Origin: Morinoia aosen
Lineage: Eukaryota; Arthropoda; Malacostraca; Amphipoda; Talitridae
DNA length: 64,000 bases
Direction: 5' to 3'
Assembly: GCA_030386875.1 (NCBI GenBank)
Contig: CM059558.1
Location: 7,077,501 to 7,141,500, forward strand
The notes beneath the pieces were generated by a model. That model saw only the letters and a list, made by a program, of their open reading frames with translations. It made no database searches and was not told the origin of the DNA. The translations under genes and the position numbers were made by a program. Below, in pieces: positions 18,663 to 64,000 of the stretch. Position 1 is the first letter of the stretch; each line of letters opens with the position of its first letter.

Positions 18663-18699
18663 ATAGTGATAGATGTCGTACAAAGTTTTAAATTCTTAC

Positions 18700-38868: not shown

Positions 38869-38872
38869 ATGT

Positions 38873-39045
38873 TGTGCGGCCATCTCCGCACATGTCTGTA
38901 TTCCGCGTCGTTCTGTATCTGTACGACACTTATATAAAGGCTGCTAATGTCGAAGCCAGTTGCTCAATCTACCGATTCCCATCCTGCTGTCAACATCTAG
39001 TGGAATAAACTCGCCAAGCTCCCCCAGTGTTTCTCTGCCCGCACA
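38873..39045 (+). repeat. 5' LTR of element 1
   Basis: 173 bp starting TGTGCGG and ending CCGCACA, so a 7-bp inverted repeat closes the LTR. It contains TTATATAAAG as a TATA box (about 38930) and GGAATAAA as a polyadenylation signal (about 39001). The next bases, TTAAG then TGGTGGCACAGC, probably hold the primer-binding site; the tRNA is not identified. Confidence 0.95.
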
Positions 39046-39157
39046 TTAAGTGGTGGCACAGCATGTGGTGAACTCAACCCACATTCGTGAACTCATAAGT
39101 GTTACAGTGGATTTCAAGTGTTCTGTGTTAACATCTTTCGAACAGTATAACATCCAA

Positions 39158-39388
39158 ATGTGTTCCAGCGAAAACAAGCAGCTCTGGCAACCTGAAGAAA
39201 CGGTCATCGTCTTTGGAATCATCGTCGCTAAAGAATTGTTGGCGGCAGCTTACTGTAGATTTACAGTATTTCTTAATTTATATTCACCCCTGCGTACGAA
39301 AATTTTGGTCTACGAGTGTGAAAACGACACTATTGAATTGGTGTTTCAAGTAAAGATTGCAGCGTTCCCAGCGTCAAACATTGAGTGA
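39158..39388 (+). CDS. ORF-A of element 1, small conserved protein of unknown function
   Basis: A 76-residue frame 113 bases after the 5' LTR and well before gag. About 59% of its residues match the 74-residue ORF at 60672-60896 of element 2, with one gap: QLWQP, KELL, AYC, FLNL, SPLRT, LVYE, IELV and IAAFPA are shared. Such conservation between elements this diverged points to selection on the protein. It has no signal peptide, membrane span or Cys/His motif; alternating hydrophobic residues suggest beta strands. I do not recognise the family. Placed here it would be the first ORF of the full-length RNA. A possible splice donor (GAA then GTAAAT, 39407) follows the stop codon by about 18 bases and could join it to the ORF-M exon. 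Confidence 0.72.
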   Translation: MCSSENKQLWQPEETVIVFGIIVAKELLAAAYCRFTVFLNLYSPLRTKILVYECENDTIELVFQVKIAAFPASNIE

Positions 39389-40510
39389 ATTTTACATCTA
39401 CAAGAAGTAAATTCAAATCTACAAGTACTAAGAACAATTTGTTTTGTGTGAAATAAATTACTACGATTGCACCAGGACAGTAGCAGTGACTGTAGCAGTG
39501 AGGAGACACGAACTTTCATTTTTAAAGTGTAATATCTTCAACGTGGTGCACAGCATAACGCAGTATAATCTTGCTGTACCAGCCGACAACGTTGCCTACA
39601 GCATCACAGCGTCCCATCATTGCCTGCAAGAGACGTGATCAGCTGTCTTCAGTTTTTTACACAGTTAAGTCTTTTGTGGAAAATTTTTTTTCTTTGTTTT
39701 GTGCTATCTCGCTCTGTCCCGAGCAGCTAGTCTTCTTTGTTGCACTTATTGCCGTGGTTTTTTTTTACCACGCCCGCTCCCTGTACAGCTGAAAGCGCTG
39801 AGTCGCACCTTGCACTCAAAATCAGTTGCATTCTGAGAGTTGTGAGAGAGACACGTTGTCCAACGAATCTGGAACGTAGCTGTTTACCAGTCTTTCACTT
39901 CAATTGCAACGTACGTGTCAAATTTTAATTGCCATTTGAATAGGAGTGTTAGTAGAAGGGTGTGATTCACCTCGATTTCAATTTTTGAAGCTTTCATGTG
40001 ATAGTATTTCACGTTCTTTGCTGTGGAGGAGAAATTTTTTTTTGTTAACGCCTTGTCGTAAGCCTCGGCATACACGAGCACTCTGCACGTTTTATTAAGA
40101 AATCACAAGGATTTGCACTGATTGTGGTGTTTGAAAGTGCCACTATTTACTGAATTTAATTGGAAGTATTGGTTACGTAATTTTATTAGCGTTATTGATG
40201 ACTAGAGATTAACGCTAGTTCATTTTCTATGTTGTTGGTACGTATTAGAAGCTACTATATTCCTAGTTACTATTTGTGATTATTAATTCAAGTGGGATTA
40301 TTAATTTTTTGTGGTTCTTCAAGGTGGTGTTTCATTAATTTTTGGGTGTTGTAAATGCATTTACGGTGTTTATTATCATTTTAACTGTTTTTAGGGGGTT
40401 TATTATCATTCTCGGTGTACGATATTAATTTTTAAATGATTTTTAACTGATTTTGGTAGTGCATTGTTAATTTTTAGTAGAACAGGTGATTTTTCGAGGA
40501 AAAACGACCC
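39389..40510 (+). other. Leader between ORF-A and gag
   Basis: 1.1 kb with no supported coding region. It is likely to carry the packaging signal and any splice donors for the accessory mRNA. It contains several T- and G-rich stretches but no repeat I can define. Confidence 0.45.
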
Positions 40511-41983
40511 ATGTCGGATTTCTCTGATTCCTTGGACAGTGAGGACGAAGTAGTACGAACTAAACCTACTGTAACTAAATACGGACGAGTGAGTAACCCA
40601 GTAGTTAGCAAGATGACGACTCCTAACACAGCAGCTCCTAACACAGCAGGGCCTAATGCTAGTGCTGGACCTAGTAATGTTGACACGACACAACTTGCAC
40701 GTGACATCGCTGCAAATCTCAATGTTCCTTCTGTCGGTACAATAATGACTAATGCCGAGCTTCCAACTTTTCGTGGAAGACGCCGTTTGCATGATGGGGA
40801 GTTCCTAGAGAATAAGACATTTTCGACACATATTCAAAATCTTAAGGCCTATATGAGCCTGTTGCCGGATGCTACTAGTGATGATCGTAAGAAGGAATTT
40901 TTGGTACGATCTGCAAACAAGAACATCGGCGATTTCAATAGTGTAGTAACTAAGTTAGTAAATACCGATTTACATTATTCTTTCGATCAGGTCGTTCAGA
41001 TACTAGAGGACATTTACGTCTCGAAAGGAGAGAAGAGTATCCATGCATTAGCTTGCGATCTAAATGAGTTGAAGTTAGTTAAAAACAATGCACTTGCTGC
41101 TCAGATCGTGAACGCATTTTCAAAAATAAGGAAGCTAACAGAGAGTATTCTTAGTTCAAACTCACTCGGGTGGCAGCGCCACGCTTATTTCCAGAACTGC
41201 ACCACGCAGGCTGAGTTAAAAAAATTCGTAGGCGACAGCATGTCGTACAGTCTGGCGTTGGGGGTTCTAGGTCCTTTATTTGATGAGACGTTCGCTAGAA
41301 AAATTTTTGAAACACAATTTTCGACTGCAGAGGAGTTGTTAGCCAAGTTAATTTCCGCGGTGCGAAGCCAGAGCGAGTCTAAGAAAATACTAGCGCAAAA
41401 GTATTCTGTCAGACAGGAGAGCGAGAGTTACGTAGGTGAAGTAACTAGTGAATTCGAGGAAGTTTTGGAGGAGCCAGATCAATTCCAAGAGAACGAAGTG
41501 TACTACGGAAGTATAGGAAATTACCGTAGGAATTTCCGATCAGGGGCCCGTAGGATTGTACCTAGGCCCTGGCTCACACGGAATCCTCGCTCAAGAGGTA
41601 GAGAGTTTAACAGTTATGTAGGAGATAGAGGAAATGGATACCTAGAGTGTAATATGATGAAATCAGATAGTAATAGTTCTGGTTCTGTACAATTCGCAGG
41701 AAATGCAGGAAATTTAGGAGGAAATTCAGGAACGAAAAAACCAGGATTCCCGTACTGTAGCAGTTGTTCGACAGTAGGGCACTTCGAGTGCAGATCTCAA
41801 AGAGGATCTCAAATGCCGAGGGGATGTTTTGCCTGTGGTGGAACTCATGTAGTAAAAAATTGTAGAGCGAGCGGTTCGGAAGTCCGTAACTATAGGGCGT
41901 ATTTACGCAGTAGGGGTAGCACGAACCGTGGGCAAAGTGAAGCTCATTGGGCGGAGTCCAAGTCAAGCGATTTTTTAAACTAG
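40511..41983 (+). CDS. gag: Gag polyprotein of element 1
   Basis: 490 residues forming the capsid and nucleocapsid of the intracellular particle. An acidic, Ser/Pro-rich N-terminus (1-85) leads to a helical capsid-like region (about 85-300). A basic, Arg/Gly-rich segment follows, then two Cys/His motifs near the C-terminus: CSSCSTVGHFEC and CFACGGTHVVKNC. Both deviate from the classical CX2CX4HX4C knuckle (CX2CX4HX2C and CX2CX3HX4C). The frame is intact from ATG to TAG. The stop lies directly behind the slippery sequence TTTTTTAAAC, so part of the translation should continue into pol by a -1 shift. No myristoylation signal is present on Gag itself. Confidence 0.9.
   Translation: MSDFSDSLDSEDEVVRTKPTVTKYGRVSNPVVSKMTTPNTAAPNTAGPNASAGPSNVDTTQLARDIAANLNVPSVGTIMTNAELPTFRGRRRLHDGEFLENKTFSTHIQNLKAYMSLLPDATSDDRKKEFLVRSANKNIGDFNSVVTKLVNTDLHYSFDQVVQILEDIYVSKGEKSIHALACDLNELKLVKNNALAAQIVNAFSKIRKLTESILSSNSLGWQRHAYFQNCTTQAELKKFVGDSMSYSLALGVLGPLFDETFARKIFETQFSTAEELLAKLISAVRSQSESKKILAQKYSVRQESESYVGEVTSEFEEVLEEPDQFQENEVYYGSIGNYRRNFRSGARRIVPRPWLTRNPRSRGREFNSYVGDRGNGYLECNMMKSDSNSSGSVQFAGNAGNLGGNSGTKKPGFPYCSSCSTVGHFECRSQRGSQMPRGCFACGGTHVVKNCRASGSEVRNYRAYLRSRGSTNRGQSEAHWAESKSSDFLN
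41971..41980 (+). promoter_or_regulatory. -1 ribosomal frameshift site, gag to pol
   Basis: In the gag frame the codons are GAT TTT TTA AAC TAG. This contains two overlapping slippery heptamers of the X XXY YYZ type, T TTT TTA (41971-41977) and T TTA AAC (41974-41980), directly before the stop at 41981. Pol lies in the -1 frame. Element 2 has the same T TTT TTA at its gag end. A downstream stimulatory structure was not tested. Confidence 0.88.
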
Positions 41984-44596
41984 GTGAAGGTAGTAAGGGG
42001 GAGTTGAAACAGATTGAGCCCGAGGTATTTAACGGTACTAACCTCGTAAAACTAGAGACCGTGGCAAAGGTTCCAGATGCAACCGAGATAACCAAGTCGT
42101 ATGTTGACCCCATATTTCAATGTAAAAATCGATATCAATTGTTGCAAGAAAAAGAGCTTGAGAATGATCATTATCAAGACAAGACTATGGAATCATATTT
42201 TTCGGTATCCGTTGTAAAAAATGGTAACAAAAATGATGCTGGTTTAATATCATTCAAGGATTCCAACAAACCGACCATTATTCTCAAAAATAATGACCAG
42301 TATTTAAGCGCTTTGCTCGACAGCGGCTCAGACAAGTGTCTTCTGAGTTTCAGACAGGTTAAAAATCTAAGTGAGGAAGTAAGGCCGAGTAAATTAAGAG
42401 TGAAAGGCGTGAACGGAAAAAGTGACGTCACTGGTGAGGTGGAGTTAGCTATTAAAATCCCCGGCACTAGTAGAGTAATTAAAACAAGCGCACTCATCAT
42501 CAAGGAGGCGAAATTCAAATATGACCTGATACTAGGTCGAGACGTATTAACAAATGCAATAATTAACTTTAAGGACAAAGAACTTCTTTGGAATGATATT
42601 TCAATTCCTTTTCAAGATTTAAATATGGAACCATTGTTAAGTAGAGAAGTAGTAATGAGAAAGATAGTTAACAGCGACTGTCTGTTGTCTGAGATTGCTG
42701 TTGCGAGGAAGAGCAACAGGAGGTTAAAAATTGATGACTGCAGCAGGAAAAATGATGACGGCGGCAGAAACAATGCTGACTGCAGGAGAAAAAATGCTGA
42801 CTGCGAGACAATGAGAGCTGCGGTAGCTCAGGCACAGACAATGAGTACGAAGCAATTAATCGTTCATTGCAATCAGGCTGAAGTGCCTGGGAATTCACTT
42901 AATGTCATTTATGGCTTCCTTAAGAAACCAATTGTAGGAGAATACGTCATTCAGAAAAGATGTCTTGATAATGGTGCTCTTATAGCTGACTCAATTGTTC
43001 AAATAAATGAAGACGGTATGGTACCGATTATGGTTTTGAATCCAAGTGATGAAACAGTGTATCTCTCTGAGAATTCTATGCTATGTCATGCGGAATTAAT
43101 AGGAGCTAATGAGATTGAGAGCGAAGTATTTTTAACAAATGTGGAAAAAGCGCTCAGAGATGCTAGTGATGTTGAAGTAAATGCTGTCGCGGGGTCGGGT
43201 ACGACTAAGGTTGTTTCGTCAGGTGGTGGAATTAATGCCATAGTCGATAGTAAACTTGGGTTGGAGGCTGATACTCGTGGCAGAGGAGAAATTCTTGCTG
43301 ATGACAAGAAGTTAGATGTTAATGCAGAAGTAAATGTAAATTTATTAAGTGGAGAAAGTGGAGAAAAGGAGTTACGACGTGAGTTAACAGTAAATGATAT
43401 TTCATGTACGGAAGAAGACATTCAATTACCTCTAGTTAATTTGTTAAATAAATTTAGAGATGTGGTGACTTTAGAAAACGAACAAATAGGAGTAACGAAT
43501 ATTTTGAAGCATCATATTCAGTTGAAGACTGATGCGCCTGTGTTAAATTTAGCTCCCTACCGCATACCTCATAAGTACCAAGAAGAGGTAATGAGAATAA
43601 CCAACGATATGCTCGACCAGGGAATAATAGAGGAGTCGTCATCTGACTTCAATTTCCCTGTCATTGTAGTTAAAAAGAAATCGGGAGATTTACGGCCCGT
43701 TATCGATTTCCGTGCTTTGAATAAAGTTTTGATTAAACATTCTTACCCAATTCCCCGCATTGACGATATCCTAGCAACATTAGGTGGAAACACGTGGTTC
43801 TCTAACCTTGATTTGCGCAGTGCATTCCATCAAATTGAATTGGAAAAAGAAAGTAGGAAGTATACTGCTTTTAGCGTCAATTACCGTAAGTACCAGTTCT
43901 GTAGGGTACCGTTCGGACTCTCAACGAGTCCGGGAATATTTCAAAAACTCATGATATCAGCGCTCTCACCCATTTTGGGAAAGCTCGCGTTTGTATTCCT
44001 CGATGACATCTTGGTATTTTCTAAAAATAAAACTCAACATTTAACTGATATAGAAATGGTGCTTAAATTGCTGCGAGACGGTAAATTATCCTTAAAGCTT
44101 GAGAAATGCCATTTCTTTAAAAAAGAACTCGAGTATCTGGGCCATATCATTGCCGCAGATGGAATTAAATGTAAATATTCAAAAAAATTGCAAGAATGCC
44201 GAGCGCCAACCAATGTTAAAGAATTACAACAGTTTTTAGGTTTGGCGAATTATTTTCGCAGCTTCCTACCAAATTTCGCTGAAGTAGCAAGTCCCTTGTA
44301 CAATCTTTTGAGAAAAAATGTGGTTTACACTTGGACTAACGAATGTCAAAAGAGTTTTGAGTTTCTGAAATCGTTATTGACTTCTGACACAGTTCTGAGA
44401 CATCCCGACTATAACAAGGACTTTCATGTGTTTACTGATGCTTCCAATTCAGGAATAGGAGCTGTATTAATGCAAGCGGATGATTCAAGCGACAAAATTC
44501 TAAGACCCATAGCTTATTATAGTAAAAATTTAAACTCCAGCCAGCGTCGGTACTCGACTACCAAAAAAGAATTTTACGCGATACACGCTGCTTTAA
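41978..44596 (+). pseudogene. pol: Pol of element 1, part 1: protease, reverse transcriptase, start of RNase H
   Basis: About 870 codons, open in the -1 frame relative to gag. Protease: ALLDSGSDKCL (the DSG aspartate near residue 125) and a following ILGRDVL. A variable, repetitive Asn/Arg-rich linker follows. Reverse transcriptase begins near residue 530 (YRIPHKYQEEV, YPIPRIDDIL, LDLRSAFHQIEL) with the catalytic pair in VFLDDILVF near 681. RNase H starts at FTDASNSGIGAVL near 828. The frame ends inside RNase H because a 222-bp MITE is inserted at a TTAA. I did not find other breaks up to there. The polyprotein would convert the RNA to DNA in the particle; this copy cannot complete it. Confidence 0.88.
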
Positions 44597-44822
44597 CACG
44601 TTGACTGCGATACGACCCATCGATGGGTCGTAGTTAGGTTTTTCCTGCTGCGAAACGACCCATCGATGGGTCGTTTTGAAAAATTCCAACAACCTTTCTA
44701 AATTAATGGTAGTTAACAGGCCCAGTTAATGTTTGATATTTACAGATTTGGTTATCACTTTTGACTTCAAATTTCATTTGAATATTGAACTTCTGTTTAA
44801 CCTATCGCAGTTAACGTGTTAA
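44593..44822. mobile_element. TTAA-flanked MITE inserted in pol
   Basis: 222 bp (44597-44818) between TTAA duplicates (44593-44596, 44819-44822). Termini are CACGTTGACTGCGATA and, inverted, CACGTTAACTGCGATA, 16 bp with one mismatch. Insertion of 226 bases in total shifts the reading frame. TTAA duplication points to the piggyBac mechanism. The left half holds two perfect palindromes CGACCCATCGATGGGTCG (44613-44630 and 44656-44673, the second extending to 24 bp). It is non-coding. Confidence 0.88.
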
Positions 44823-46484
44823 AGCATTTTAAATACTTAATTACAGGATATACGGTTCGCGTCTACACCGACCACCGTCCTCTTGCACCATTGTTTAATA
44901 AAAAATTACCTGAGGACACTAACATGGCTCGTTGGTGCATAGATGTAAATTCCCTTGACCCGGTGGTAAAATATCTGCCTGGTAAGGAGAACGTTGTTGC
45001 AGACTATTTAAGCAGATTACCTGTTAATAACGAAAAATTAGATCTTAAAGAACTAAACTCTTGTGATGATTTGGAAGTCGCATTTGAATCAGAAGTTTGT
45101 GTTGTGGAGACTCGAGCACGACACAAACGAACGACAAGAAGCGAGGTAGTTGACCTGCCCTCGACTCGAGACGATGCTGACAGTGCAGCAGACAAGGGCG
45201 CTAGACCCGCGCTGATAGACTACGTACCGACTGAAGCTGAAATATCTTGGACGATTGAGGAGTTTATCGACGAACAAAATAATGACGCTTTCTGTATGGA
45301 GCTTAAGAATGCTTTGTTGCATGACAGTGTTTCGACTATTCCTGACTTAGATAAATTTCTAGTGTTAAATAATATTCTTTATAGACGTAGAGAAATCGAT
45401 AATCGACCAAGTACAATTTTGACTGCAGTCGTTCCTAATTCATTAATGAGTAAAGCTATCCTAGCGATCCACAGTTTATATCATGTCGATTACAAGCATA
45501 CCTTGTTTAAATTTAAGTTAAAATATTGGAATCAATTAGAGAAAACTTTTGTGCGAAAATTTGTTAGCGATTGCGAGGTTTGCAAGATCATTAAAGCGAG
45601 ACCTTCAGTACCAATTAAAATTTTAACAGCTCCAATAGCCACAGAACCTTTCGAAGTTGTATCAATTGATCTGCTTGGCCCACTTAAAGTAACTGATAAT
45701 GGAAATAAATATATTCTAGTGGTGATTGACCTTTTCTCGAGGTTTTGTCGTTTGTATGCAATTTCAAATCGAAATACAGAAACAGTGATTTCTTGTTTAA
45801 GCAGCTGTTTCTCATTACTAGGTTACCCTAAGACGCTCATTTCAGATAATGCTTGGGAGTTTAAATCAGTGGCTCTCAAACAATTTGCAAAATTACATGC
45901 CATTTCAAAAAGGGAAGTATTGGCTTACAGCCCACATTCTAACGCCATTGTGGAGCGCAACAATAAAAAATTACGAATCTGCTGAAACTTTATATTAATA
46001 CAATTGTTAATGTAGAGTGGGACCAATTATTGGAAGTAGTGGAAAATGCACTGAATAATTCTTTAAATTCTACTATTGGCGAAACACCAAGCTATATTAT
46101 GTTCAATCGCGATACGTGTGCTTACTATCAGTCTGACAGTTTAAAGTCAGTAACTTACAGTTTTGATGAAGAAATAGATTTAGTGAATGTTAGAGCTAGA
46201 GAAGCCGTTCGAACAGTAGAAAATATACGAAATTTTTTATTAACAATACAACAGAGCGAAATCTCTATAGAAACCTTAAGCGGCGCAATAAGGATATTCA
46301 CGTGGGTGATAGAGTCCTATTAAGGAATCATAACAAGACCCATAAACTTGAATTAAGTTGGATTGGTCCAGCAGTAGTCCAAAAGGTTAAACGTAATTAC
46401 GCTGATATTAAAATTGGATCGAAAATCGTTAGAAGTAACCTTAACCATATTTTACCACTCAAAAAGTTAAAATCTGTGAGTTGA
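44823..46484 (+). pseudogene. pol: Pol of element 1, part 2: end of RNase H and integrase
   Basis: After the MITE the RNase H tail resumes (VYTDHRPLAPLF). The integrase follows with an HHCC finger (HSLYH ... CEVC), a core with SIDLLGPL, ISDNAWEF and IVERNNKK in D-D-35-E spacing, and a C-terminal domain (GDRVLLRN, LSWIGPAVV). Two small indels break it, one near 45980 just after the catalytic Glu and one near 46250, each changing frame. Comparison with the intact integrase of element 2 shows where the frames should join. Either real mutations or base-calling errors in the assembly could explain them. Confidence 0.85.
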
Positions 46485-47206
46485 AACGACGAATTCATTG
46501 GACTGTATGACGTTCTAACTAATCGAAGAATAACGATTTACCTTTTTGTCATTGTCTACTCCGTTTTACCGTTTTACTGTTTTACCGTACTGTTACCATA
46601 GTTACCGTTGTTTACCAATAATGTTACGGAATATAATCGTAATTATAGACGCATTTTTGCTCTGTGCAATATGCTTTGCGTTCATATTAATCTCACTAAT
46701 CAATGCGTTGTGTTTTTTATGTTAATTTTAATGTTGCTTTATGCCCAAGTAAGTGGGTTATGTTAGGTATTTACCCTGAGGAATTTGTACCGTCTAGCTT
46801 TCAGTGTCGCTAGGATGTTTTATTAATTTTTTTTTTCTCAAATGCACTCAGACATTGGTATTGCTAAATTGACGATTTTTAATTGTGAACGGTTGTCAGG
46901 CGGTGAATTGAGTTCGCTGAGCCAGAAATTTATGCAGCGAGACGCGCACTTGCGGTCTTGCCGAGCTATTTTTATCTGACCAGACGGTCGCTGATCTAGA
47001 TGTGAATGACTCCGATCGTTCGACGATCAGCAGAATTTAAATTAAAATTCATAAGGCAGTTGTCTTGTCACCTGCCACATTTTTTTTTCTCAGCGATCGG
47101 CGACTATATTTTGTATGCGAGAGTTATCGTGGTTCAATGACTCTTGGGAGTCAACCAAGATTGATACCAAATTATATGTTGTATTTATTTTCATTGAATA
47201 CGGCCA
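46485..47206 (+). other. Spacer between pol and ORF-M
   Basis: About 720 bases without a supported gene. It ends in the branch point and splice acceptor used for ORF-M. Confidence 0.45.
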
Positions 47207-47236
47207 TGCTAATTTTTCTGTATCCTTCACTTGCAG
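47207..47236 (+). promoter_or_regulatory. Candidate splice acceptor for the ORF-M mRNA
   Basis: Branch-point match TGCTAAT (47207-47213), then a pyrimidine-rich run, then CTTGCAG followed by GAG (AG at 47235-47236). The ATG of ORF-M comes 13 bases later. Branch-to-AG distance is about 25 bases. The same TGCTAAT plus pyrimidine tract stands before ORF-A in element 2. Confidence 0.7.
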
Positions 47237-47249
47237 GAGAGGGTGCTCG

Positions 47250-47546
47250 ATGGGTAATGCACAGAGTAATATCGACGTAGATACCCTCGTCTCGGCTTTG
47301 TCCACGCACTCGACAACCGTTAACGAACAGTGGGTCAAAGAAAACGCGGTAACCAAGATGGAATTACTTCCCGACCGGCTTACGGACATCATCATTATGG
47401 GTCTTATCCTGTCTACGATGATTATGGGAACTGTCCTATACCATCTGAAGAAGGAGGTACAGACGTTGACGGCGACGCAACGAGAAAATTTTTCCTACGC
47501 GATGGTGCGGGGCAGGCCGCCAAGGGTCGTCCATCAGGACCCATAA
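47250..47546 (+). CDS. ORF-M of element 1: small MGN-type membrane protein
   Basis: 98 residues. It starts MGNAQSN, which fits the N-myristoylation rule (Gly2, Ser6). One hydrophobic segment (about 46-65, IIIMGLILSTMIMGTVLYHL) follows LLPDRLTD, then basic KK and a polar tail with RGRPPR. Element 2 has a counterpart (60225-60551) that aligns without gaps over the first 72 residues: about a quarter are identical and most others conservative (MGN..SNI.VD, L.PD.L.DI, K.. after the membrane span). It sits where retroviruses carry env and has its own splice acceptor, so a spliced subgenomic mRNA is likely. A lipid-anchored, single-span protein might act in particle budding, membrane targeting or cell-to-cell passage; this is inference. 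I recognise no named family. Confidence 0.72.
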   Translation: MGNAQSNIDVDTLVSALSTHSTTVNEQWVKENAVTKMELLPDRLTDIIIMGLILSTMIMGTVLYHLKKEVQTLTATQRENFSYAMVRGRPPRVVHQDP

Positions 47547-49109: not shown

Positions 49110-49123
49110 AGGGGGGGGAACTA
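49110..49123 (+). promoter_or_regulatory. Polypurine tract of element 1
   Basis: GAGGGGGGGGAA followed by CTA immediately before the 3' LTR. This is the expected primer site for plus-strand DNA synthesis. Confidence 0.9.
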
Positions 49124-49296
49124 TGTGCGGCCATCTCCGCACATGTCTGTATTCCGCGTCGTTCTGTATCTGTACGACACTTATATAAAGGCTGCTAATG
49201 TCGAAGCCAGTTGCTCAATCTACCGATTCCCATCCTGCTGTCAACATCTAGTGGAATAAACTCGCCAAGCTCCCCCAGTGTTTCTCTGCCCGCACA
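49124..49296 (+). repeat. 3' LTR of element 1
   Basis: Identical by eye to the 5' LTR over all 173 bp. It is followed by the target duplicate ATGT. Confidence 0.95.
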
Positions 49297-51032: not shown

Positions 51033-51900
51033 ATGGCCTATCATGTTGATACATTTGATGAAATTGATCCTGATCTCAATCATTCGAATATATTGTATCC
51101 GAACCTAAACAAAACTAGAAACTGTGGATACGAGTACATTAATATTGAAAAATTCAATGAATCGACGAGAACAAGTCGCAATGATTTTTCGCTGCTGTTT
51201 TGGACCTGTAGTTCACTCAATCGAAAATTGATAAAATATCTTGCACAATCTTTGAACAAAATTGTAATTTTGACGTTATTAGCTTCACCGAAAGTCGGTT
51301 CGATGACTCATTTAATGACATGATTCAAATGCAGAACTATTTTTGCCATCATTCACTACGTAATGATAATGAACGTGGCAAAGACGTCGGTGCGTACATC
51401 CCTAAACACAGAGCTTAGAGAACAGTGGCAAGTGCGACTATGAATCATGACCATCTCGAAGCGTCAATCATAGAACAAACGAAAAACCGTAAACGTATTA
51501 TTTTAGGAACTGTGTATATGCTTCCAACTGCCTATCCCGCATCTCTTCTAAATGAACTCCATAGCATAAGGTCGCAGTTTAACAAGTCTTTATACAATGA
51601 CGTAATAATCTGCGGTGACTTCAACTACGATCTTCCATAACATGAAAGCTGCAAACAAATCTCACATTTCATAAATGTTTTTCAGTCTAAATCTTTCCTT
51701 CCAGTCATCCCAAAGCCTACACGTGTCTCATCCGAAACTGCTACGCTGCTCAATAATATCTTCACGAAAGATGCAACTGATTTTCTTACAGTAATCGTAA
51801 GTTCCGACTTATCAGATCATTTCCCAGTGTTTCTTATGAATAAATGTCTTTATTACTGGTACCAAGCCACTGGCGGAAACGCACTCATTTCGTTGAGTAA
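51033..51900 (+). pseudogene. Decayed LINE endonuclease domain
   Basis: Fragments of an exonuclease-endonuclease-phosphatase type nuclease of a non-LTR retrotransposon (Jockey/CR1-like). Recognisable pieces are a SLNRKL segment, an ISFTES-like segment in a shifted frame, a conserved LGTVYMLP, VIICGDFNYDL (catalytic DFN), a KPTR...TLLNNIF segment and SSDLSDHFPVF. There are stops (for example TAG at about 51417) and at least one frameshift near 51250. No reverse transcriptase is seen downstream, so this is a truncated dead copy. Confidence 0.75.
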
Positions 51901-52410
51901 ATGAATCAAATTTGGGAACAAAATGTGAACCAATATTGCTGTAATGTGAGCGTACTTAGCAGATACAGAAAGTTTCGAAATTTTGGCGATGTTCTTTAAA
52001 TATTCTTCAGTTCACACGAATCTTCAGGCACAGTTTCTGTACACTTTTGATAACAATTTGAATTCTTGTACGCCGAAGAAACTTCATTTCGCGCCTATTT
52101 AGACTTCTTTATAATAGTAACGCAGATCTCAGGATAACTGAGCTGTTTCGGGTCCGACATCAACTATTTCCGGATTTGTAGAATTTTGTAACAATGTTCA
52201 GAATCAAGCAAACGCTGAGCCGAATAAATTTTGAATACTTCAACGAATCATCAAAATTTCAGATGAAAATTTATCACAACTTTCGAGCCTCGTAATGTTT
52301 TTCCACTGTTATTTAGACTATTTTAGCGAATGAATATTCTGGAATACCTCTCGTGTATATAGAATTAAGACGTACATTTCATACGTGTATGACAACAAAG
52401 CTACAGAAAA

Positions 52411-54368: not shown

Positions 54369-56313
54369 TTAATCGACTTCCTCAATAGTTGATCCCTGAG
54401 CAGGACCACCGGGTCCTGCTGGGGGCATGGGACCGTCAGGCATAGTTGGACCACCAGCTCCCCCGTAGAGCTTGGTGATCATAGGAGTGCACACCTTCTC
54501 CACTTCCTTCTGTTTGTGCTCGAACTCCTCCTTCTCTGCCAGCTGGTTGTCATCCAACCACTTCAGGGTCTCGTAGCACACGTCCAGCACTTTCTTGCGG
54601 TCGTCTTCATTGATTTTTGCTTTCATTTCGTCGTCTTCAAGAGTTGATTTCATGTTGAACAAGTATGACTCGAGTGAATTTTTAGCTGAAATTCTTTCCT
54701 TTTGTTTGTCATCTTCAGCTTTGAATTTCTCAGCATTCTGTACCATTTGTTCGATCTCTTCCTTGCTGAGGCGACCCTTGTCGTTAGTAATGTTGATCTT
54801 ATTCTCTTTGCCGGTAGATTTGTCCACAGCCGACACGTTCAAGATACCGTTGGCATCGCATCGATATCGAAAGTAACCTCAATCTGAGGAACGCCTCGAG
54901 GTGCAGGTGGGATACCGGTGAGCTCGAACTTGCCAAGGAGGTTGTTATCCTTGGTCATGGCGCGCTCGCCCTCGTAGACCTGGATGAGCACACCAGGCTG
55001 GTTGTCGGAGTAGGTGGTGAAGGTCTGAGTTTGCTTGGTGGGGATGGTGGTGTTGCGCTTGATGAGAGCAGTCATGACACCTCCAGCGGTCTCAATGCCC
55101 ATCGGAAGAGGAGCCACATCCAGGAGCAGCAAGTCTTGGACGGCTTCTGATTTGTCTCCTGTCAAGATAGCTGCCTGGACTGCCGCTCCATAAGCTACAG
55201 CCTCGTCAGGATTGATGGACTTGTTCAATTCTTTGCCGCCGAAAAATCTTGTAGCAGCTTCTGAATCTTGGGAATACGCGTCGACCCACCGACGAGCACA
55301 ATCTCGTGGATTTGACTCTTATCCATTTTGGCATCCCTCAGAGCTTTTTCAACGGGATCCAAAGTTCCTCTGAAGAGATCGGAGCATAGCTCCTCAAATC
55401 GTGCTCTGGTAACCGATGTGTAGAAGTCAATTCCCTCAAAGAGAGAATCGATCTCAATGCTGGCTTGGGCAGACGAAGACAACGTTCGCTTGGCTCGTTC
55501 ACATGCCGTCCTTAGGCGTCGCAGAGCACGTTTGTTTTCTGAGATATCTTTCTTGTACTTTCTTTTGAATTCTTGAGCGAAGTGATTAACGAGACGATTG
55601 TCGAAATCTTCGCATCCCAGGTGCGTGTCACCGGCTGTAGATTTAACTCCGAAAATGCCGTCATCGATCGATAAAATGGAAACATCGAAGGTTCCACCTC
55701 CCAAGTCGAAAATCAGATGATTGCGCTCGCCCGTACCGCTGCATTTCTTGTCGAGGCCGTAAGCAATGGCCGCTGCTGTGGGTTCGTTGATAATTCTCAG
55801 GACGTTAAGACCTGCAATGGCACCAGCATCTTTTGTAGCTTGACGCTGTGAGTCGTTGAAGTAAGCAGGTACGGTAATGACTGCGTCCTTCACTGTGTCT
55901 CCTAGGTAAGCTTCAGCGATTTCCTTCATTTTCGTGAGAACCATAGACGAGATCTCTTCAGGAGAGAAAGTCTTGTTTTCTCCCCTGTACTCGACTTTGA
56001 TCTTGGGCTTTCCATCATCGCTGATAACTTTGAAGGGCCAGTGTTTCATGTCAGTGGACACGGTCTGGTCATGGTATTTACGGCCAATGAGTCTCTTGGC
56101 ATCGAACACTGTGTTGATGGGGTTAAGGGCGACTTGGTTCTTGGCAGGGTCTCCGATGAGCCTCTCTGTGTCGGTGAAGGCGACGTACGAAGGAGTTGTC
56201 CTGTTGCCCTGGTCGTTGGCGATGATCTCGACCTTGCCATGCTGGAACACACCCACGCAGGAGTAGGTCGTGCCCAGGTCGATGCCCACTGCAGTCGCTC
56301 CCTTCGTCCTCAT
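54369..56313 (-). pseudogene. hsp70: HSP70 copy C, frameshifted
   Basis: Homologous along its whole length to copies A and B, but with a one-base deletion near 55246 and a five-base insertion near 54855-54860 (a duplicated CATCG-like unit). They do not compensate each other. Translation from the ATG gives 362 residues and then stops, so only most of the nucleotide-binding domain could be made, without substrate-binding domain, lid or EEVD tail. Within the open part several conserved residues have changed (for example GGEDFD to GCEDFD, Leu to Phe in NHLAQ, and GERNILIF to GERNHLIF), as expected under relaxed selection. The 5'UTR intron and promoter are still intact, so it may still be transcribed on heat shock. 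Confidence 0.93.
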
Positions 56314-57909: not shown

Positions 57910-58500
57910 ACACTTCAGTTGGCAGACCATAACTCTTGAAAGAATGCATCTATCGACTTCAAAATACTCGCAAATGAAAGAGCAAAACATTTTCTTTCTC
58001 CCTGATATAAACAACACCCTAACGGTTTGCCGAAAGCTACAAAAATTCTTCGATAGACCTTGTGCACTCGCGCGCAGTAAAAACACTTCAGTTGGCAGAC
58101 CTTAACTCTTGAAAGAATGCATCTATCGACTTAAAATACTCGCAAATGAAAGAGCGAAACATTTTCTATCTCCCTGATACAAACAACACCCTAACGGTTT
58201 GCCGAAAGCTACAAAAATTCTTCGATAGACCTTGTGCACTCGCGCGCAGTTAAAACACTTCAGTTGGCAGACCATAACTCTTGAAAAAATGCATCTATCG
58301 ACTTCAAAATACTCGCAAATGAAAGAGCGAAACATTCTTTCTTCCCATATTGTACACACGACCCTAACGGTTTTCTGGGAACTACAGAAATTTATCGATA
58401 AGCTTTTCCGACTCGCGCGCCGTCAAAAAACTCAAGTTGACCCGCTTTTAACTTTTGAAAGAATGCACTCATCGACTTCAAATTACTCTCAAACGGGCTA
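57910..58500. repeat. 172-bp tandem repeat, about 3.5 copies
   Basis: Units begin ACACTTCAGTTGGCAGACC at about 57910, 58083 and 58255, with a diverged partial fourth from about 58427. The first two junctions are nearly identical; the last copies have drifted. Frames reading through it on both strands reflect the repeat, not a gene. Position directly upstream of the hsp70-C paralogy break suggests a satellite at the duplication boundary. Confidence 0.85.
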
Positions 58501-58804
58501 ATATTAGTATCCTGTATGTCTCATTTTTTCTGTACCTGCAGTTGTGTTAATTTCTGAATAAGTTTTCTACCTAATATTGTCAACGACTTTTTCATGGTGG
58601 AAGATATCGTAAAAATTACAGCATAATTTGGATGAATTCAACCTGCAGATGATCGTTTGAAGGTCTGGACTCTTTACATATGAACTGAATGCATCCCTTA
58701 CATTTATTCTAGCTCTTACCTCCTGAGCTTTTCTCCGGATAGCGTACAGCAAAGACGACGACCACGACCCATCTGTTCTTCTTTCGGTGAATCATAGATG
58801 CCAA

Positions 58805-59125
58805 TGTTCCGGCCCTTTTCTCTAACAGGCCGCAAACAAACGCGAATGGGGTTCGAGAGTGACGAGCCGCAACGTGGTTTATAATTTATTGGTACTTCAG
58901 AGTAGATACAGGTTTGGTAGTTTTCAAGAAACAGTGAGGTCGGACGATAGTTGCTGGTACAAGTCTTCTACAACGCATCTGTGATCTTGTACAAGTGCTC
59001 TGCGATGGTAACGCATCTGCTACTGGCCAGTGATGGCTCTGTCTAATGTGATCACCACGACAGCTGGCCGACAATGAACGACGATATCTCTCACCGACTC
59101 TATTTATGTAGGAGGCGGCCGCACA
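58805..59125 (-). repeat. 3' LTR of element 2 (right boundary approximate)
   Basis: On the minus strand it starts TGTGCGGCCGCC, like element 1, followed by ACATAAATAGAG as TATA and AATAAATTATAAA as polyadenylation signal. The end near 58805 (GGAACA) is a guess because the other LTR is not in the window. Confidence 0.55.
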
Positions 59126-59140
59126 TATGCTCCCCCCACA
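59126..59140 (-). promoter_or_regulatory. Polypurine tract of element 2
   Basis: TGTGGGGGGAGCATA on the minus strand, directly before the LTR start. Confidence 0.8.
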
Positions 59141-60224
59141 ATTTTTAAAAATTCTTTATTACAATAAAAATTTTTAAATCGGTATTTAATTTACTTTGAT
59201 TTTCCTGTGACTATCGAGTAATCTTACAATCCGTCTTATAACAAAATTCAGAATCAGAATGTATAAGCTTCCGAATTATGAACAGAGGTAGACAGGTATG
59301 GCCGTTGCTGTCATCATAAACAAATTTCAACGGTAATCCTACATCGTGTTAAACAATTTTTAGTGTCTATATTATATATTAGCGTCACTTCAATACCAGA
59401 TTTATTATCTATAAACAGCCAAATAATCACTCTATGCATTTAGCTCAAACAAGTTGTTCATTCATCATTAAGTTTATCAACTTAAATTTATCAACTGCTT
59501 TTAGAATGTCCGTTATTCGTAATAGAATTCGTGGATACTTCAAATATTTCGGATACAAAAGATACATCGCACAATTTAACATATCAGAATATCAAAAACG
59601 AACATCAAAACGCGTACTGAATAAATCAACTCAAGTTATAGAATATAAGTTTTAATACGCAAACAATACAATACTACAAATGGTAAGTTCAACTTGATTC
59701 AAATCCTACGATTCAAATTAACGTAATAATAATAGAATAATAGAGAAAAATCTACGGATTTCAATACCAGAATTTAACTATCTCGTGGCACATTTTTCTC
59801 GCGATACAGTTCTTCGTGGCACGCTGCTAAAAAATGCGTTGAATATGAAAACTCTCCGATGATGCATTATTACAATTAAATTCGCAAGTGATCGTTACAT
59901 GATGAGAATATAAGTAGTTATTCTGCCTTTCTGCTTTTCAATCATTTTAATTAAAATGGTTCTTCAAATTTTCAAAAAGCTCTCGTCCTTCGCGAACTAC
60001 TGGTGAACAAAACAATTCTATGGGGCAAGTAAAACGACAAAAAGGTTATAATATTGACAGCGAAAACAGAACCGTATATAATAGAATTATTTAAAATACA
60101 ACATATAGAATAGAGATAATCTAAGACATGGGGGTTTCTTACTCCTCGGGAGATTGGAATATCAGAACATGATATTTAGATCTATGTTATTTAATACAAA
60201 ACGTGTGAGCCTAGAATTGTAAAG
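59141..60224 (-). other. 3' non-coding region of element 2
   Basis: About 1.1 kb AT-rich, no supported gene; position equals the long 3' region of element 1. Confidence 0.5.
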
Positions 60225-60551
60225 TTACACGCTAACTTGAGGCGAGACTGAAGGGATCTGCCTAGGACCGTTACAGATTTCTTTTAAAGCGGTTCGACGC
60301 AATGCGACGTCCTCACCACTAATGCGGCTAATGACCTTGTGTAGATCCCGTTTTATGTAGATAATCATCACCGCAAGGATGATTGTAATTACTGTGTACA
60401 GAAGCAACATTATGTCGCTTAACTGGTCAGGAATGAGATCAACTCTTGTTTCCTCAGTGTGTCGAATAAGTTCATCCGAGATTTGGCCATTATTGGCCTT
60501 TATCGCCGTTAATATGGCATCTACATTAATATTCGATACTTTATTGCCCAT
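60225..60551 (-). CDS. ORF-M of element 2: small MGN-type membrane protein
   Basis: 108 residues starting MGNKVSN (Gly2, Ser6: possible N-myristoylation). DLIPDQLSDI leads into one membrane span (about 47-66, MLLLYTVITIILAVMIIYI), then KRDLHK and a 36-residue tail with basic and polar residues. It aligns without gaps to the first 72 residues of ORF-M of element 1. Tails are unrelated in length and sequence. The ATG at 60551 is chosen because the homology and the MGN motif begin there. A branch-point match TACTAAC (60619-60625) and an AG at 60601-60602 upstream could serve splicing. ORF-A ends 120 bases before it. Confidence 0.72.
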   Translation of the reverse strand: MGNKVSNINVDAILTAIKANNGQISDELIRHTEETRVDLIPDQLSDIMLLLYTVITIILAVMIIYIKRDLHKVISRISGEDVALRRTALKEICNGPRQIPSVSPQVSV

Positions 60552-60600
60552 CTTAGCGGGCCAGAACGCAGCTATCAATGCGGGGATTAGAATTGTGCCG

Positions 60601-60625
60601 CTTGAAATTACGTAAGTTGTTAGTA
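60601..60625 (-). promoter_or_regulatory. Candidate splice acceptor before ORF-M of element 2
   Basis: Consensus branch point TACTAAC (60619-60625, minus strand) is followed by ACGTAATTTCAAG (AG at 60602-60601). The pyrimidine tract is weak. Confidence 0.45.
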
Positions 60626-60671
60626 TTGATTAATAGTGAATATCGTTTTTAGTAATTACAGATTTATTTTA

Positions 60672-60896
60672 TCACTGGATGGTTGCTGGAAATGCAGCGA
60701 TTCTTATTTGAATTACTAGTTCTATATCATTTCCGGCCTCATACACTAAAACACGTGTACGTAAAGGGGAATCAAGGTTCAGGAATATGTTTAATTTGCA
60801 ATAGGCCTCCTGTAACAATTCTTTAGATACCCTAAATTTTAAAACGATAGTCGATTCCTGTGGCTGCCAGAGTTGGTTAGTAGCCCCGGTACACAT
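60672..60896 (-). CDS. ORF-A of element 2, small conserved protein of unknown function
   Basis: 74 residues; about 59% match ORF-A of element 1 (QLWQP, KELL, AYC, FLNL.SPLRT, LVYE, IELV, IAAFPA). The ATG at 60896 is chosen because homology starts with its MC. Here the gene lies after pol and directly before ORF-M, while in element 1 it lies behind the 5' LTR. A strong acceptor (TGCTAAT, then CGTTCTTTTCAG) precedes it by about 85 bases, so a spliced mRNA carrying ORF-A and ORF-M is likely. No recognisable domain, membrane span or signal peptide. Confidence 0.75.
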   Translation of the reverse strand: MCTGATNQLWQPQESTIVLKFRVSKELLQEAYCKLNIFLNLDSPLRTRVLVYEAGNDIELVIQIRIAAFPATIQ

Positions 60897-60980
60897 CAAT
60901 ACAATTCAAGCAGTGAATGCGTATGTTGTAAATCGGAATGTGTAATTGTTCCGGAGATGCTCAGGAGTCGCTCCAGGAAT

Positions 60981-61008
60981 CTGAAAAGAACGATACAGCT
61001 TATTAGCA
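60981..61008 (-). promoter_or_regulatory. Candidate splice acceptor before ORF-A of element 2
   Basis: Minus strand: TGCTAAT (61008-61002), then AAGCTGTATCGTTCTTTTCAG with AG at 60982-60981. The branch motif is identical to that before ORF-M in element 1. Confidence 0.65.
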
Positions 61009-61499: not shown

Positions 61500-63602
61500 T
61501 TACCTTTTGAATCTATCTAAAGGCAGTACATGGTTTAGATTCGATCGGATAATCTTGTTGCCAATCCTAATATCTGCATAATTTTTACCTAGCCGTTCAA
61601 TGATAGCAGGACCCAAAAAATTCAGCTGTAATTTATGTTTTTTGGCGTGATTTTTTACTAGTACACGGTCCATCACTTTTAAATTTTTATCGCGGCGTTT
61701 CATATTTCTATAGGCAGTTCTTTCAATTGTGGCGTTAATGATTGCATTTCGAATATTGTTCACTACAATAGATGACTCTGTAAATTTTTGATTTTGAACA
61801 TCTTCATATGAAGTAGCAACATTTAATTCTTCTAAATTAGTAGAACTGACATAAACACATGTATCTCTACCGAAAACCGTGTATGCAGGTGTATCTCCTA
61901 ATGTTTCGTTATAACTATTATTAATCGAATTCTCTACAATATCCAGCAAGCTATCCCACTCATTATGAGTAAGAAAATTTAGATATAGCTTGAGCAGGTG
62001 TCGAATTTTACCATTACATCGCTCGACGATACCGTTAGAAAAAGGTGAGTAAGCCAGAACTTCCTTTTTTAAAATAGAAAGTCCTTTTGTGAAATTTTTT
62101 ACGTTAGATGCCTTAAATTCTAGCGCGTTGTCGGACAACAACACGTCTGGGGTACCGAACAAACAGCAAAAATTCCATAGACAATCTGTGACAGTCTCTG
62201 TACATCGGTCACTAGTTGGATATAATTTGACAAACCTGGAAAAAAGGTCAATGATAACAAGAATATACTTGTTACCATTGTCCGTCATTGGCAGTGGACC
62301 GTAAAAGTCCATGCTGACAGTTTGAAAACATCGCGTTCCAATTGGAGCATTTAGAATTTTAATCGGCGTCGATATGCGTGATTTTAGAATTTTACAGATG
62401 TCACATGATTCAACAATTTTGCGTGTAACTGTCCTTTCGTACGGATGAAAATATTTTAATTTAAACTTAAACAAGGTATGATTTAAATCAGTGTGGGATA
62501 AATTATGGATGAAAAGAATTGTCTGGTGCAGCAAAGTATACGGCACTACACTAGTCAGAATAGTACTGGGTCTGTTGTCAATTCTTCGTCTTTTATACAA
62601 AATCTCATTTATAATCAGAAATTCATTTATGTCGGTATTAGAAACTTTAGTTGCATTCTCTAGGGCATTCTTGATTTCAGAACAAAATGGATCTTGATCT
62701 TGTTCACGTTTAAATTCGTCTAATGACCAGTTGTCATTAGTACTTGATTGGTCTGTAGTCGTATTAACTCTATCCAGTCTGCATAAGCTCGTTGTCTGTC
62801 TGCTATTAGAGTCACTGGGTTCACGTCTGGGGCTCTCGGCAGTACTGTTGTTGTTTCTTCCGTCATCATTTCCTGGGATTGTTTCCTCGAACTCTCCCTC
62901 AGTCACAGGCTTGTTACATTTGTTACTCGCAGCAGCGGCTTGCAACCTTGTTACAACGGCATTCTTGTCTAATAAATCACGTCCAATAATGACGTCATAA
63001 TTGTAAATACCGTCTTTAATTATTAGAGCATTTGTCTTTAAACTTACTCCGTTTTTTAACTTTAGGACAAGCTCTACCTCTCCTTCGACATTACTTTTAG
63101 CATTAACGCCTTTTATAGTCAGAGAACTTGGCTTCACTTCATTACTTATTTCATTAATTCTGTGGTAGCTTATTAGGCACTTCTCTGAACCTGAATCAAT
63201 CAATGCATTCCACAGGTCTGCATCTTTTCTCAGTACAATCATTGGTTTTTGACTTTTTCGTATTACAAATAATTCATTCTGGCCTGTTATTTCTACCTCT
63301 TCATCTTCTTCGTATTTACAAACGTTCGCCGTAATGTGGCTTTCAACACTATCAGTGCTATGAACTTTTAAGTCATCGCTTAAATCTACTTCTCCCAGCA
63401 ATTCATATCGATTTTTACATTTGATCATTGGGTCAACTCTCTCAACATTTTTAACGAGGGAACCTTCAACGCCAGCATTCTCCTCGGGTTCATCGGGCAT
63501 CACTGTCGTAGAGTCACAATTAGTTATAGTTATTTTAGTTTCCGTTTTATCATCGACGTTACCTCTATCGGCAATGAAATCTTCTCCACTGCTTACGTTA
63601 AA
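61500..63602 (-). CDS. pol: Pol of element 2: protease fused to integrase, RT and RNase H missing
   Basis: About 700 codons in the -1 frame relative to gag, fully open. Protease shows NALIDSGSEKCL and IIGRDLLD. A 90-residue linker rich in Asn, Ser and Arg (from NAVVTRLQAAAASN) follows and leads straight into the integrase N-terminus (DNRPSTILTSVVP). The finger is HNLSH ... CDIC and the core is SMDFYGPL, LSDNALEF and IVERCNGK in D-D-35-E spacing. The C-terminal domain (DRVLVKN, LNFLGPAII, RSNLNHVLPL) is intact. The region holding reverse transcriptase and RNase H in element 1 (about 650 residues) is absent without a frameshift. This copy cannot reverse-transcribe by itself but could encode working protease and integrase. 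Confidence 0.88.
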   Translation of the reverse strand, partial: FNVSSGEDFIADRGNVDDKTETKITITNCDSTTVMPDEPEENAGVEGSLVKNVERVDPMIKCKNRYELLGEVDLSDDLKVHSTDSVESHITANVCKYEEDEEVEITGQNELFVIRKSQKPMIVLRKDADLWNALIDSGSEKCLISYHRINEISNEVKPSSLTIKGVNAKSNVEGEVELVLKLKNGVSLKTNALIIKDGIYNYDVIIGRDLLDKNAVVTRLQAAAASNKCNKPVTEGEFEETIPGNDDGRNNNSTAESPRREPSDSNSRQTTSLCRLDRVNTTTDQSSTNDNWSLDEFKREQDQDPFCSEIKNALENATKVSNTDINEFLIINEILYKRRRIDNRPSTILTSVVPYTLLHQTILFIHNLSHTDLNHTLFKFKLKYFHPYERTVTRKIVESCDICKILKSRISTPIKILNAPIGTRCFQTVSMDFYGPLPMTDNGNKYILVIIDLFSRFVKLYPTSDRCTETVTDCLWNFCCLFGTPDVLLSDNALEFKASNVKNFTKGLSILKKEVLAYSPFSNGIVERCNGKIRHLLKLYLNFLTHNEWDSLLDIVENSINNSYNETLGDTPAYTVFGRDTCVYVSSTNLEELNVATSYEDVQNQKFTESSIVVNNIRNAIINATIERTAYRNMKRRDKNLKVMDRVLVKNHAKKHKLQLNFLGPAIIERLGKNYADIRIGNKIIRSNLNHVLPLDRFKR

Positions 63603-64000
63603 AAATTATCGCTACTGTTGGTTTGGTAAGTTTCTACCTGGCTTTTTTCTGGTACTCGAGTTTTATACTGTCCTCGCGCACGGACACGATCAGGCCTTCC
63701 TGGTCTGGTGAAATACTCTCTTCCGAACCGACAATCTCTTGCGTAGTGTCCTAACTTATTACAACGGAAACAAGCCCCGCTACTCCGCGACTGCTCGGTG
63801 GCCGTATGCCCTAAACTTGGTTTGTACCAATCAGTCGGTTTCTCTACCGACGCACCTTGTCGTTGGCACACGCACGCACTTCTGTTGCAATACGAGCAAC
63901 GCCTAGCCTCGGTGGCTGTTTCCAATGCCTGAACTTCTAGAGTTCCTAATTCACGATCAACAAAAGATTTTACATGAGGTCTAGCACGGTAAGTTGGTCT
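63593..64000 (-). CDS. gag: Gag of element 2, C-terminal part
   Basis: At least 135 codons, open to the window edge. It contains a Cys-rich CSYCNRSACVC segment and a standard nucleocapsid knuckle CFRCNKLGHYARDC (CX2CX4HX4C), followed by a basic Arg-rich tail. The stop TAA at 63593-63595 lies two codons behind the slippery heptamer. Element 1 has less regular knuckles, so element 2 keeps the more typical form. Confidence 0.85.
   Translation of the reverse strand, partial: RPTYRARPHVKSFVDRELGTLEVQALETATEARRCSYCNRSACVCQRQGASVEKPTDWYKPSLGHTATEQSRSSGACFRCNKLGHYARDCRFGREYFTRPGRPDRVRARGQYKTRVPEKSQVETYQTNSSDNFLT
63599..63605 (-). promoter_or_regulatory. -1 frameshift site of element 2
   Basis: Minus-strand codons AAT TTT TTA ACG TAA contain T TTT TTA immediately before the gag stop, and pol is open in the -1 frame. 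Same heptamer and placement as element 1. Confidence 0.87.

Follow-up and report, generated by a model that had tools for sequence, protein, structure and literature searches.

Ty3/gypsy retrotransposons of the Drosophila MDG1 group (412, Mdg1 and Stalker2) have no env and carry two small accessory genes, sORF1 and sORF2, both situated upstream of gag, and no splicing has been seen in these elements (PMC11952523). The sORF2 motif set, which is reminiscent of the reovirus FAST proteins, was described by Voichek and colleagues from 412, its relatives and 105 insect consensus sequences: an MGxxxS start, one membrane span, a tyrosine bordering the span on its inner side and then lysine or arginine, in proteins of 63–107 aa with an ectodomain of about 30 residues (PMC11952523). 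An amphipathic motif within the ectodomain is a further mark of sORF2/FAST-like proteins. sORF2-like proteins are linked to Envelope-free cell-to-cell transfer in Drosophila, where sORF2 and capsids gather at protrusions that follicle cells send into the oocyte; sORF2-driven fusion was not reproduced in minimal cell systems, as acknowledged among the limitations of that study (PMC11952523). The companion protein sORF1 has about 110 aa and is predicted by AlphaFold3 to form a helix-turn-helix, and in 412 a short RNA ends at a poly(A) site just behind sORF1 (PMC11952523). Seven of the 22 lepidopteran consensus sequences have sORF2 downstream of pol (PMC11952523). For the ZAM and Beagle subclades of insect elements, the excerpts of PMC12992720 considered here describe short peptide exons for env that lie upstream of gag. 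The matches listed in a search of the open-licence literature included no further study of small FAST-like genes from insect retrotransposons.

We analyzed a stretch of 64,000 nucleotides from the amphipod Morinoia aosen (contig CM059558.1), referred to below as the window, which contains two diverged Ty3/gypsy elements that share a pair of small genes, ORF-A and ORF-M, in different layouts (Table 1). In element 1 (+ strand), ORF-A1 starts 112 bp past the 5' LTR and is separated by 7.9 kb from ORF-M1, which follows pol; in element 2 (− strand), both genes follow pol. The two ORF-A proteins are identical at 44 of 73 positions (60%, E 5e-33) and the two ORF-M proteins at 19 of 75 (25%; 53/75 positives; E 9e-15), and none of 20,000 segment-wise shuffles, with the membrane segment kept apart, reached the ORF-M alignment score. 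Each family was found twice in the window by tblastn (E 1e-3), in both cases as the copies of elements 1 and 2. The homology between the elements rules out that ORF-A and ORF-M are chance open reading frames. The initial annotation had placed the two genes side by side behind pol in element 2, at coordinates that proved exact on the − strand, and had located ORF-A at the 5' end of element 1 some 8 kb from ORF-M, in agreement with the distance measured here inside an LTR-bounded insertion. Its central claim, a shared gene pair whose order differs between the elements, is borne out by the pairwise homology and the positions. That the two proteins also work together may be the case, and the sample on which this and the following comparisons draw is one copy per lineage, both defective in pol, with the 5' region of element 2, where a second ORF-A may lie, outside the window.

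Table 1. Coordinates of elements 1 and 2 and of their candidate expression signals in the window.
Feature	Position	Strand	Remarks
Element 1 5' LTR	38873..39045	+	173 bp, TGTGCGG...GCACA; ATGT at 38869-38872
Leader ATG and weak candidate donor	39063..39069	+	ATG opens a two-codon frame; intron would start at 39068, 4.46 bits
ORF-A1	39158..39388	+	76 aa; first gene-sized frame after element 1 5' LTR
AATAAA behind ORF-A1	39452..39457	+	66 nt past first base of stop codon; possible alternative poly(A) signal
Best candidate donor, element 1 leader	40483..40491	+	8.82 bits, 0.38 per 1000; 25 nt before gag ATG
Element 1 gag	40511..41983	+	490 aa; T TTT TTA heptamer at end, overlaps pol
Element 1 pol	41947..46484 (end about)	+	PR, RT, RNase H, IN
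Candidate acceptor before ORF-M1	47220..47237	+	9.47 bits, 0.28 per 1000 positions; first exon base 47237
ORF-M1	47250..47546	+	98 aa, after pol, sORF2/FAST-like; MGNAQS start
Element 1 3' LTR	49124..49296	+	Purine tract ahead, ATGT after (49297-49300)
Element 2 gag, 3' part	63593..64000	-	CCHC knuckle read by eye; 5' part outside window
Element 2 pol frame	61500..63605	-	Protease fused in frame to integrase, without RT and RNase H
Candidate acceptor before ORF-A2	60980..60997	-	8.94 bits, 0.45 per 1000 positions; first exon base 60980
ORF-A2	60672..60896	-	74 aa, after pol frame (ends 61500)
AATAAA behind ORF-A2	60663..60668	-	6 nt past first base of stop codon
ORF-M2	60225..60551	-	108 aa, after ORF-A2, sORF2/FAST-like; MGNKVS start
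Element 2 presumed 3' LTR	58846..59125	-	Start from purine tract and nine-base tip; inner end guessed

Element 1 is a Ty3/gypsy insertion (38873–49296) with both ends present, and belongs to the Metaviridae as judged by its PR-RT-RNase H-IN order, the TG..CA tips of its LTRs and a short target duplication. The two LTRs are identical (173/173, 100%) and a 4-bp duplication, ATGT, is found on both flanks. Between the LTRs the order is ORF-A1, a 1.1-kb leader, gag, pol, ORF-M1 and a 1.6-kb 3' region that contains the purine tract. The gag frame gave a single Pfam match at E 0.91, and pol matched RVP, RVT_1, RNase H and rve in that order. This pol is defective: an insert of about 222 bp interrupts RNase H, and the integrase region contains two frame breaks. 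The insert (at about 44597–44818) is flanked by TTAA and has near-identical inverted ends; it resembles a piggyBac-type MITE. The T TTT TTA heptamer occurs in the −1 frameshift phase in the gag-pol overlaps of both elements (41971–41977, +; 63605–63599, −). A misassembled or chimeric segment around ORF-A1, named by the initial annotation as a finding that would undo its reading, is ruled against by the identical LTRs and the ATGT duplication on both sides, which place ORF-A1 inside one insertion.

Element 2 runs beyond the window edge at 64000, and its visible part comprises the end of gag, the pol frame, ORF-A2, ORF-M2, a 1.1-kb 3' region, a purine tract and the presumed LTR. Its pol matched RVP and rve and no RVT in Pfam, with an alignment gap where RT and RNase H are missing; despite this loss the frame stays open over 701 codons. 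The presumed LTR shares its first nine bases with the LTR of element 1, and over its whole length resembles it no better than shuffles do (28 of 100 reached the score); an AATAAA lies 235 nt into it. On the coding strand between pol and the 3' LTR, no stop-to-stop frame exceeds 163 aa in element 1 or 134 aa in element 2, and an env remnant was rejected on the grounds that no long frame is present there in either element. A blastn search of the window, which would miss a strongly diverged LTR, found no further copy of the element 1 LTR beyond its pair or of the 3' region of element 2 (58400–61000), apart from a tandem array. This array, of a 172-nt unit, spans 57961–58477 and adjoins the 3' end of element 2, and the unit is also matched at about 58411–58493.

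Elsewhere in the window, three Hsp70-like copies lie on the − strand (14822–16762, 28110–30050 and 54369–56313, the third broken up into several frames), in stretches that recur across the window; the first copy was the one run against Pfam. Long near-perfect inverted repeats are present at 18154–18673 and 16820–17482 (189 nt, 98%; 139 nt, 99%, separated by 4 nt; 145 nt, 94%; 139 nt, 93%). A 355-aa frame at 7060–8127 (−) matches DUF4817 and, more weakly, HTH_32 and is probably transposase-related, and fragmented frames at 51212–51904 (+) resemble, by eye, the endonuclease region of a non-LTR retrotransposon.

Comparison of the two elements indicates how the shared genes have diverged. Identity at codon positions 1, 2 and 3 is 0.72, 0.82 and 0.36 for ORF-A and 0.43, 0.64 and 0.27 for the first 75 codons of ORF-M, a pattern that points to protein-level selection on both genes. 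dS is saturated between the elements, and dN increases from ORF-A (0.26) through integrase (0.37; 0.36 in its C-terminal part) and protease (0.45) to ORF-M (0.80, first 75 codons). Of the parts compared, ORF-A has thus evolved most slowly and ORF-M most rapidly; RT and most of gag fall outside the comparison, since in element 2 they are missing or lie beyond the window edge.

Both ORF-M proteins contain one strongly hydrophobic stretch with a tyrosine at its inner edge and lysine or arginine behind it. The predicted membrane span covers residues 45–63 or thereabouts in ORF-M1 (followed by Tyr64 and KK; hydropathy maximum 1.93) and about 48–66 in ORF-M2 (Tyr65 and KR; 2.75), so that 44–47 residues precede the span in proteins of 98 and 108 aa. 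An MGxxx[ST] start is found in 2 of the 105 ATG-to-stop frames of 60–130 aa in the window, counting nested starts separately, and these two are ORF-M1 and ORF-M2; 28 of the 105, both ORF-M frames included, have a hydrophobic 19-mer. By its predicted architecture ORF-M is best filed as sORF2/FAST-like, a likeness at the level of motifs. An AlphaFold2 model of ORF-M1 is a single helix (residues 10–87, mean pLDDT 74.4) and says little. Searches gave no relative of ORF-M among proteins at E 0.1 (16 candidates) or in viral contigs (28 pattern matches); against PDB sequences one match at E 0.086 was obtained in one search and none in another. ORF-M1 had two Pfam matches (E 0.09 and 0.15) and ORF-M2 none, and ORF-M2 by itself matched phrog_9057 in PHROGs (E 0.0012), a family of unknown function.

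A search of 5.8 billion proteins at E 0.01 brought up no relative of ORF-A (11 candidates had words in common with it), and neither did viral contigs (205 pattern matches, 0 confirmed), contigs of bacterial and archaeal genomes (35 pattern matches, 0 confirmed), Pfam or PDB sequences; ORF-A1 had one match in PHROGs, at E 0.076. The pol of the elements fared similarly, with no match in viral contigs and five distant matches (28–38% identity) in the protein search. The collections searched seem poor in insect elements and the protein search depends on shared 5-residue words, so the absence of relatives of ORF-A, ORF-M and pol means little. An AlphaFold2 model of ORF-A built from the two sequences has a strand-helix-strand-strand order (E-H-E-E; pLDDT 73.5) with no significant structural match. 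ORF-A is likely, but not certainly, soluble, since ORF-A1 has a hydrophobic 19-mer (hydropathy maximum 1.92) that ORF-A2 is without (0.95). Both genes are closely followed by AATAAA: of the 72 distinct distances from stop codon to AATAAA recorded for frames of 60–130 aa in the window, six, those of both ORF-A genes included, are at most 75 nt and two are at most 12 nt. Together with the short RNA of 412, this proximity is the reason for proposing that ORF-A could take the part of sORF1, acting early and possibly being read from a short RNA as well.

We then evaluated whether splicing could bring ORF-A and ORF-M to the front of an mRNA, using splice matrices not trained on this genome; all sites are candidates. 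In element 1, the ATG of ORF-M1 is the first to follow acceptor 47237, 13 nt into the exon, although 17 ATGs occur in the 766 nt before ORF-M1; an acceptor at 47094 scores slightly higher (10.08 bits), but four ATGs then precede ORF-M1. Likewise, acceptor 60980 in element 2 makes the ATG of ORF-A2 the first in its exon: the 603 nt upstream of ORF-A2 contain 22 ATGs, but the 84 nt after the acceptor contain none; the slightly stronger acceptor 61149 (9.27 bits) is separated from it by eight ATGs. Env-like splicing is supported by these two sites, 47237 and 60980, as each would make its gene the first ATG in an ATG-rich region. The initial annotation had reported acceptor-like signals before each gene of element 2, which holds for ORF-A2; the signal directly ahead of ORF-M2 scores poorly (1.96 bits). 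Ribosomes might arrive at ORF-M2 by leaky scanning past ORF-A2, with two ATGs intervening, or from weak acceptors at the 3' end of ORF-A2 (60685, 5.99 bits; 60674, 5.30 bits), after which its ATG comes first.

The donor side of element 1 is more equivocal. The best candidate, 40486, would keep ORF-A1 in exon 1, with five ATGs between ORF-A1 and the donor; at the rate of the window, chance would place about 0.6 donors of this quality in the 1.6 kb examined. The donors of element 1 are no better than chance. A weak donor at 39068, if joined to 47237, would omit ORF-A1 and bring the leader ATG at 39063 into frame with ORF-M1, as judged from the coordinates. It had been suggested that, given a splice in element 1 from a site downstream of ORF-A, the lineage keeps ORF-A and ORF-M on one mRNA by two routes. 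Donor 40486 would indeed give a transcript with ORF-A followed by ORF-M, and acceptor 60980 suits such a transcript in element 2, but the former scores at chance level and competes with a donor placed before ORF-A; a common mRNA in both elements is possible and has partial support.

We looked for traces of the relocation by comparing nucleotide similarity in six pairs of non-coding regions with that of shuffled sequences. The score was reached by 69 of 100 shuffles for the leader of element 1 against the region before ORF-A2, by 11/100 for the two post-pol regions, by 67/100 for the post-pol region of element 1 against the spacer between ORF-A2 and ORF-M2, and by 29/50 for the regions behind ORF-M1 and ORF-M2. 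The best of the six, which paired the sequence downstream of ORF-A1 with the spacer between ORF-A2 and ORF-M2 (4/100), is not convincing; the LTRs (28/100, as given above) were the remaining pair. Among the coding controls, ORF-A (0/100) and integrase (0/50) were recovered, and ORF-M was matched by 15 of 100 shuffles, which makes the test blind at ORF-M's level of divergence. The routes put forward earlier for the move, reverse transcription of a spliced RNA or recombination between LTR-proximal regions, thus left no convincing trace in the six pairs, and neither the routes nor the direction of the move can be distinguished. A 5' origin of ORF-A would be the simpler guess given that both small genes lie upstream of gag in Drosophila, and it depends on an assumed phylogeny.

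Taken together, we consider it probable that: (i) elements 1 and 2 represent one Ty3/gypsy (Metaviridae) lineage that has no env frame and carries a two-gene accessory set, (ii) ORF-M is a membrane protein that has one span and a myristoylation signal and is expressed from a spliced RNA in the manner of errantivirus env, and (iii) ORF-A is its conserved partner, which changed ends after the lineage split with both genes under selection. ORF-M would most likely help capsids to pass directly between touching cells, as a FAST-like transmission protein. ORF-A would be a small, strongly conserved and probably soluble protein translated close to the 5' end of its message, which would be unspliced in element 1 and spliced in element 2. 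Its most likely function would be an early one or the control of the element's RNA, a role that sORF1 may have in 412. Against this account stand the defective pol of both copies and the leader ATG at 39063, which precedes ORF-A1. Further points against it are the length of ORF-M2 and of the residues ahead of the span in ORF-M, the size and modelled fold of ORF-A relative to sORF1, the hydrophobic 19-mer of ORF-A1, the slightly higher-scoring acceptors 47094 and 61149, the chance-level donors of element 1 and the absence of observed splicing in Drosophila MDG1 elements. A stronger version, to which we give only tentative credence, would make ORF-A a new family unrelated to sORF1 and an obligate partner of the FAST-like ORF-M, the latter spliced like env, with ORF-A having moved and been kept together with ORF-M by selection; two elements are too few to show obligate pairing.

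Several other explanations were weighed against this proposal. ORF-A and ORF-M might be independent accessory genes read from separate RNAs, the pair being shared by common descent and not by joint expression; element 1 would then splice from 39068 to ORF-M, and element 2 would use one acceptor for each gene. This arrangement is favoured by the frame agreement between the ATG at 39063 and ORF-M1 through 39068 and 47237, for which the env exons of ZAM and Beagle offer a precedent in the excerpts of PMC12992720, by the weak acceptors ahead of ORF-M2 and by a dN of ORF-M about three times that of ORF-A. Yet donor 39068 is weak, frame agreement arises by chance in one case out of three, the route would add residues ahead of the conserved MGN start, and the better donor 40486 retains ORF-A in exon 1, so we regard separate RNAs as possible though doubtful. 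Similarly doubtful is that ORF-M is some other myristoylated membrane protein, such as a Gag anchor or budding aid, and no fusogen. Its resemblance to sORF2 is one of motifs, and fusion by sORF2 itself was not reproduced in minimal cell systems (PMC11952523); what speaks for a fusogen is the combination of a myristoylation motif, a single span, a juxtamembrane tyrosine and a basic patch in elements with no env-length frame.

Descent of ORF-A directly from MDG1 sORF1, with the published sORF1-sORF2 pair split in element 1 or moved behind pol in element 2, appears unlikely. The A-then-M order of element 2 and the 5' ORF-A of element 1 do match the order and place of sORF1 and sORF2, and the AATAAA after ORF-A in both elements recalls the poly(A) site after sORF1 in 412, but ORF-A, at 74–76 aa, is shorter than the roughly 110 aa of sORF1, and its predicted fold is no helix-turn-helix (PMC11952523). 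We regard it as highly improbable that the differing order is an artefact of one nested or rearranged copy and not a trait of the lineage. Such an origin could be suspected from a single copy per lineage, both defective, and from the unseen 5' end of element 2; it is opposed by the identical LTRs and target duplication that bound element 1, by the candidate acceptor and open frame that ORF-A2 has of its own, and by the lack of second copies in the blastn search of the window, which would miss a strongly diverged LTR.

If the proposed account of a FAST-like ORF-M with a conserved, relocated ORF-A is true, the two diverged elements, which keep one pair of accessory proteins in two layouts, offer a natural comparison of how retrotransposons are transmitted without Envelope. 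ORF-A, which exceeds integrase in conservation between the copies, would then be an overlooked component of that system, and env-style splicing could drive FAST-like genes.

Compared with the MDG1 group, the Morinoia elements are likewise Ty3/gypsy elements with two small accessory genes and no env, with the sORF2 motifs in ORF-M, with ORF-A1 upstream of gag and with a possible poly(A) signal behind the first small ORF. They differ in that ORF-M lies behind pol and ORF-A at either end: one small ORF is upstream of gag in element 1, and both are behind pol in the visible part of element 2, in place of the two upstream of gag in MDG1 elements. ORF-A also differs from sORF1 in its shorter length and in its modelled E-H-E-E fold. 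With reovirus FAST proteins, as described in PMC11952523, ORF-M shares small size, a predicted acylated N terminus, a single span and a basic patch; it has more residues ahead of the span than the figure published for sORF2/FAST (44–47 versus about 30), and ORF-M2, at 108 aa, is just outside the range of 63–107. Like errantiviruses and insect ERVs such as gypsy and ZAM, as covered by the excerpts of PMC12992720, the elements have a third gene behind pol that needs splicing, here predicted, and whose exon 1 may lie upstream of gag; unlike the F-type Env described there, ORF-M is small and single-span and carries a myristoylation motif. The lepidopteran elements with sORF2 downstream of pol also have an sORF2-like gene in the env position, with no companion gene described in the parts of PMC11952523 considered here. 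A protein of the ORF-M kind has thus been described before, and the new part of the Morinoia elements is ORF-A, which accompanies ORF-M in two different positions.
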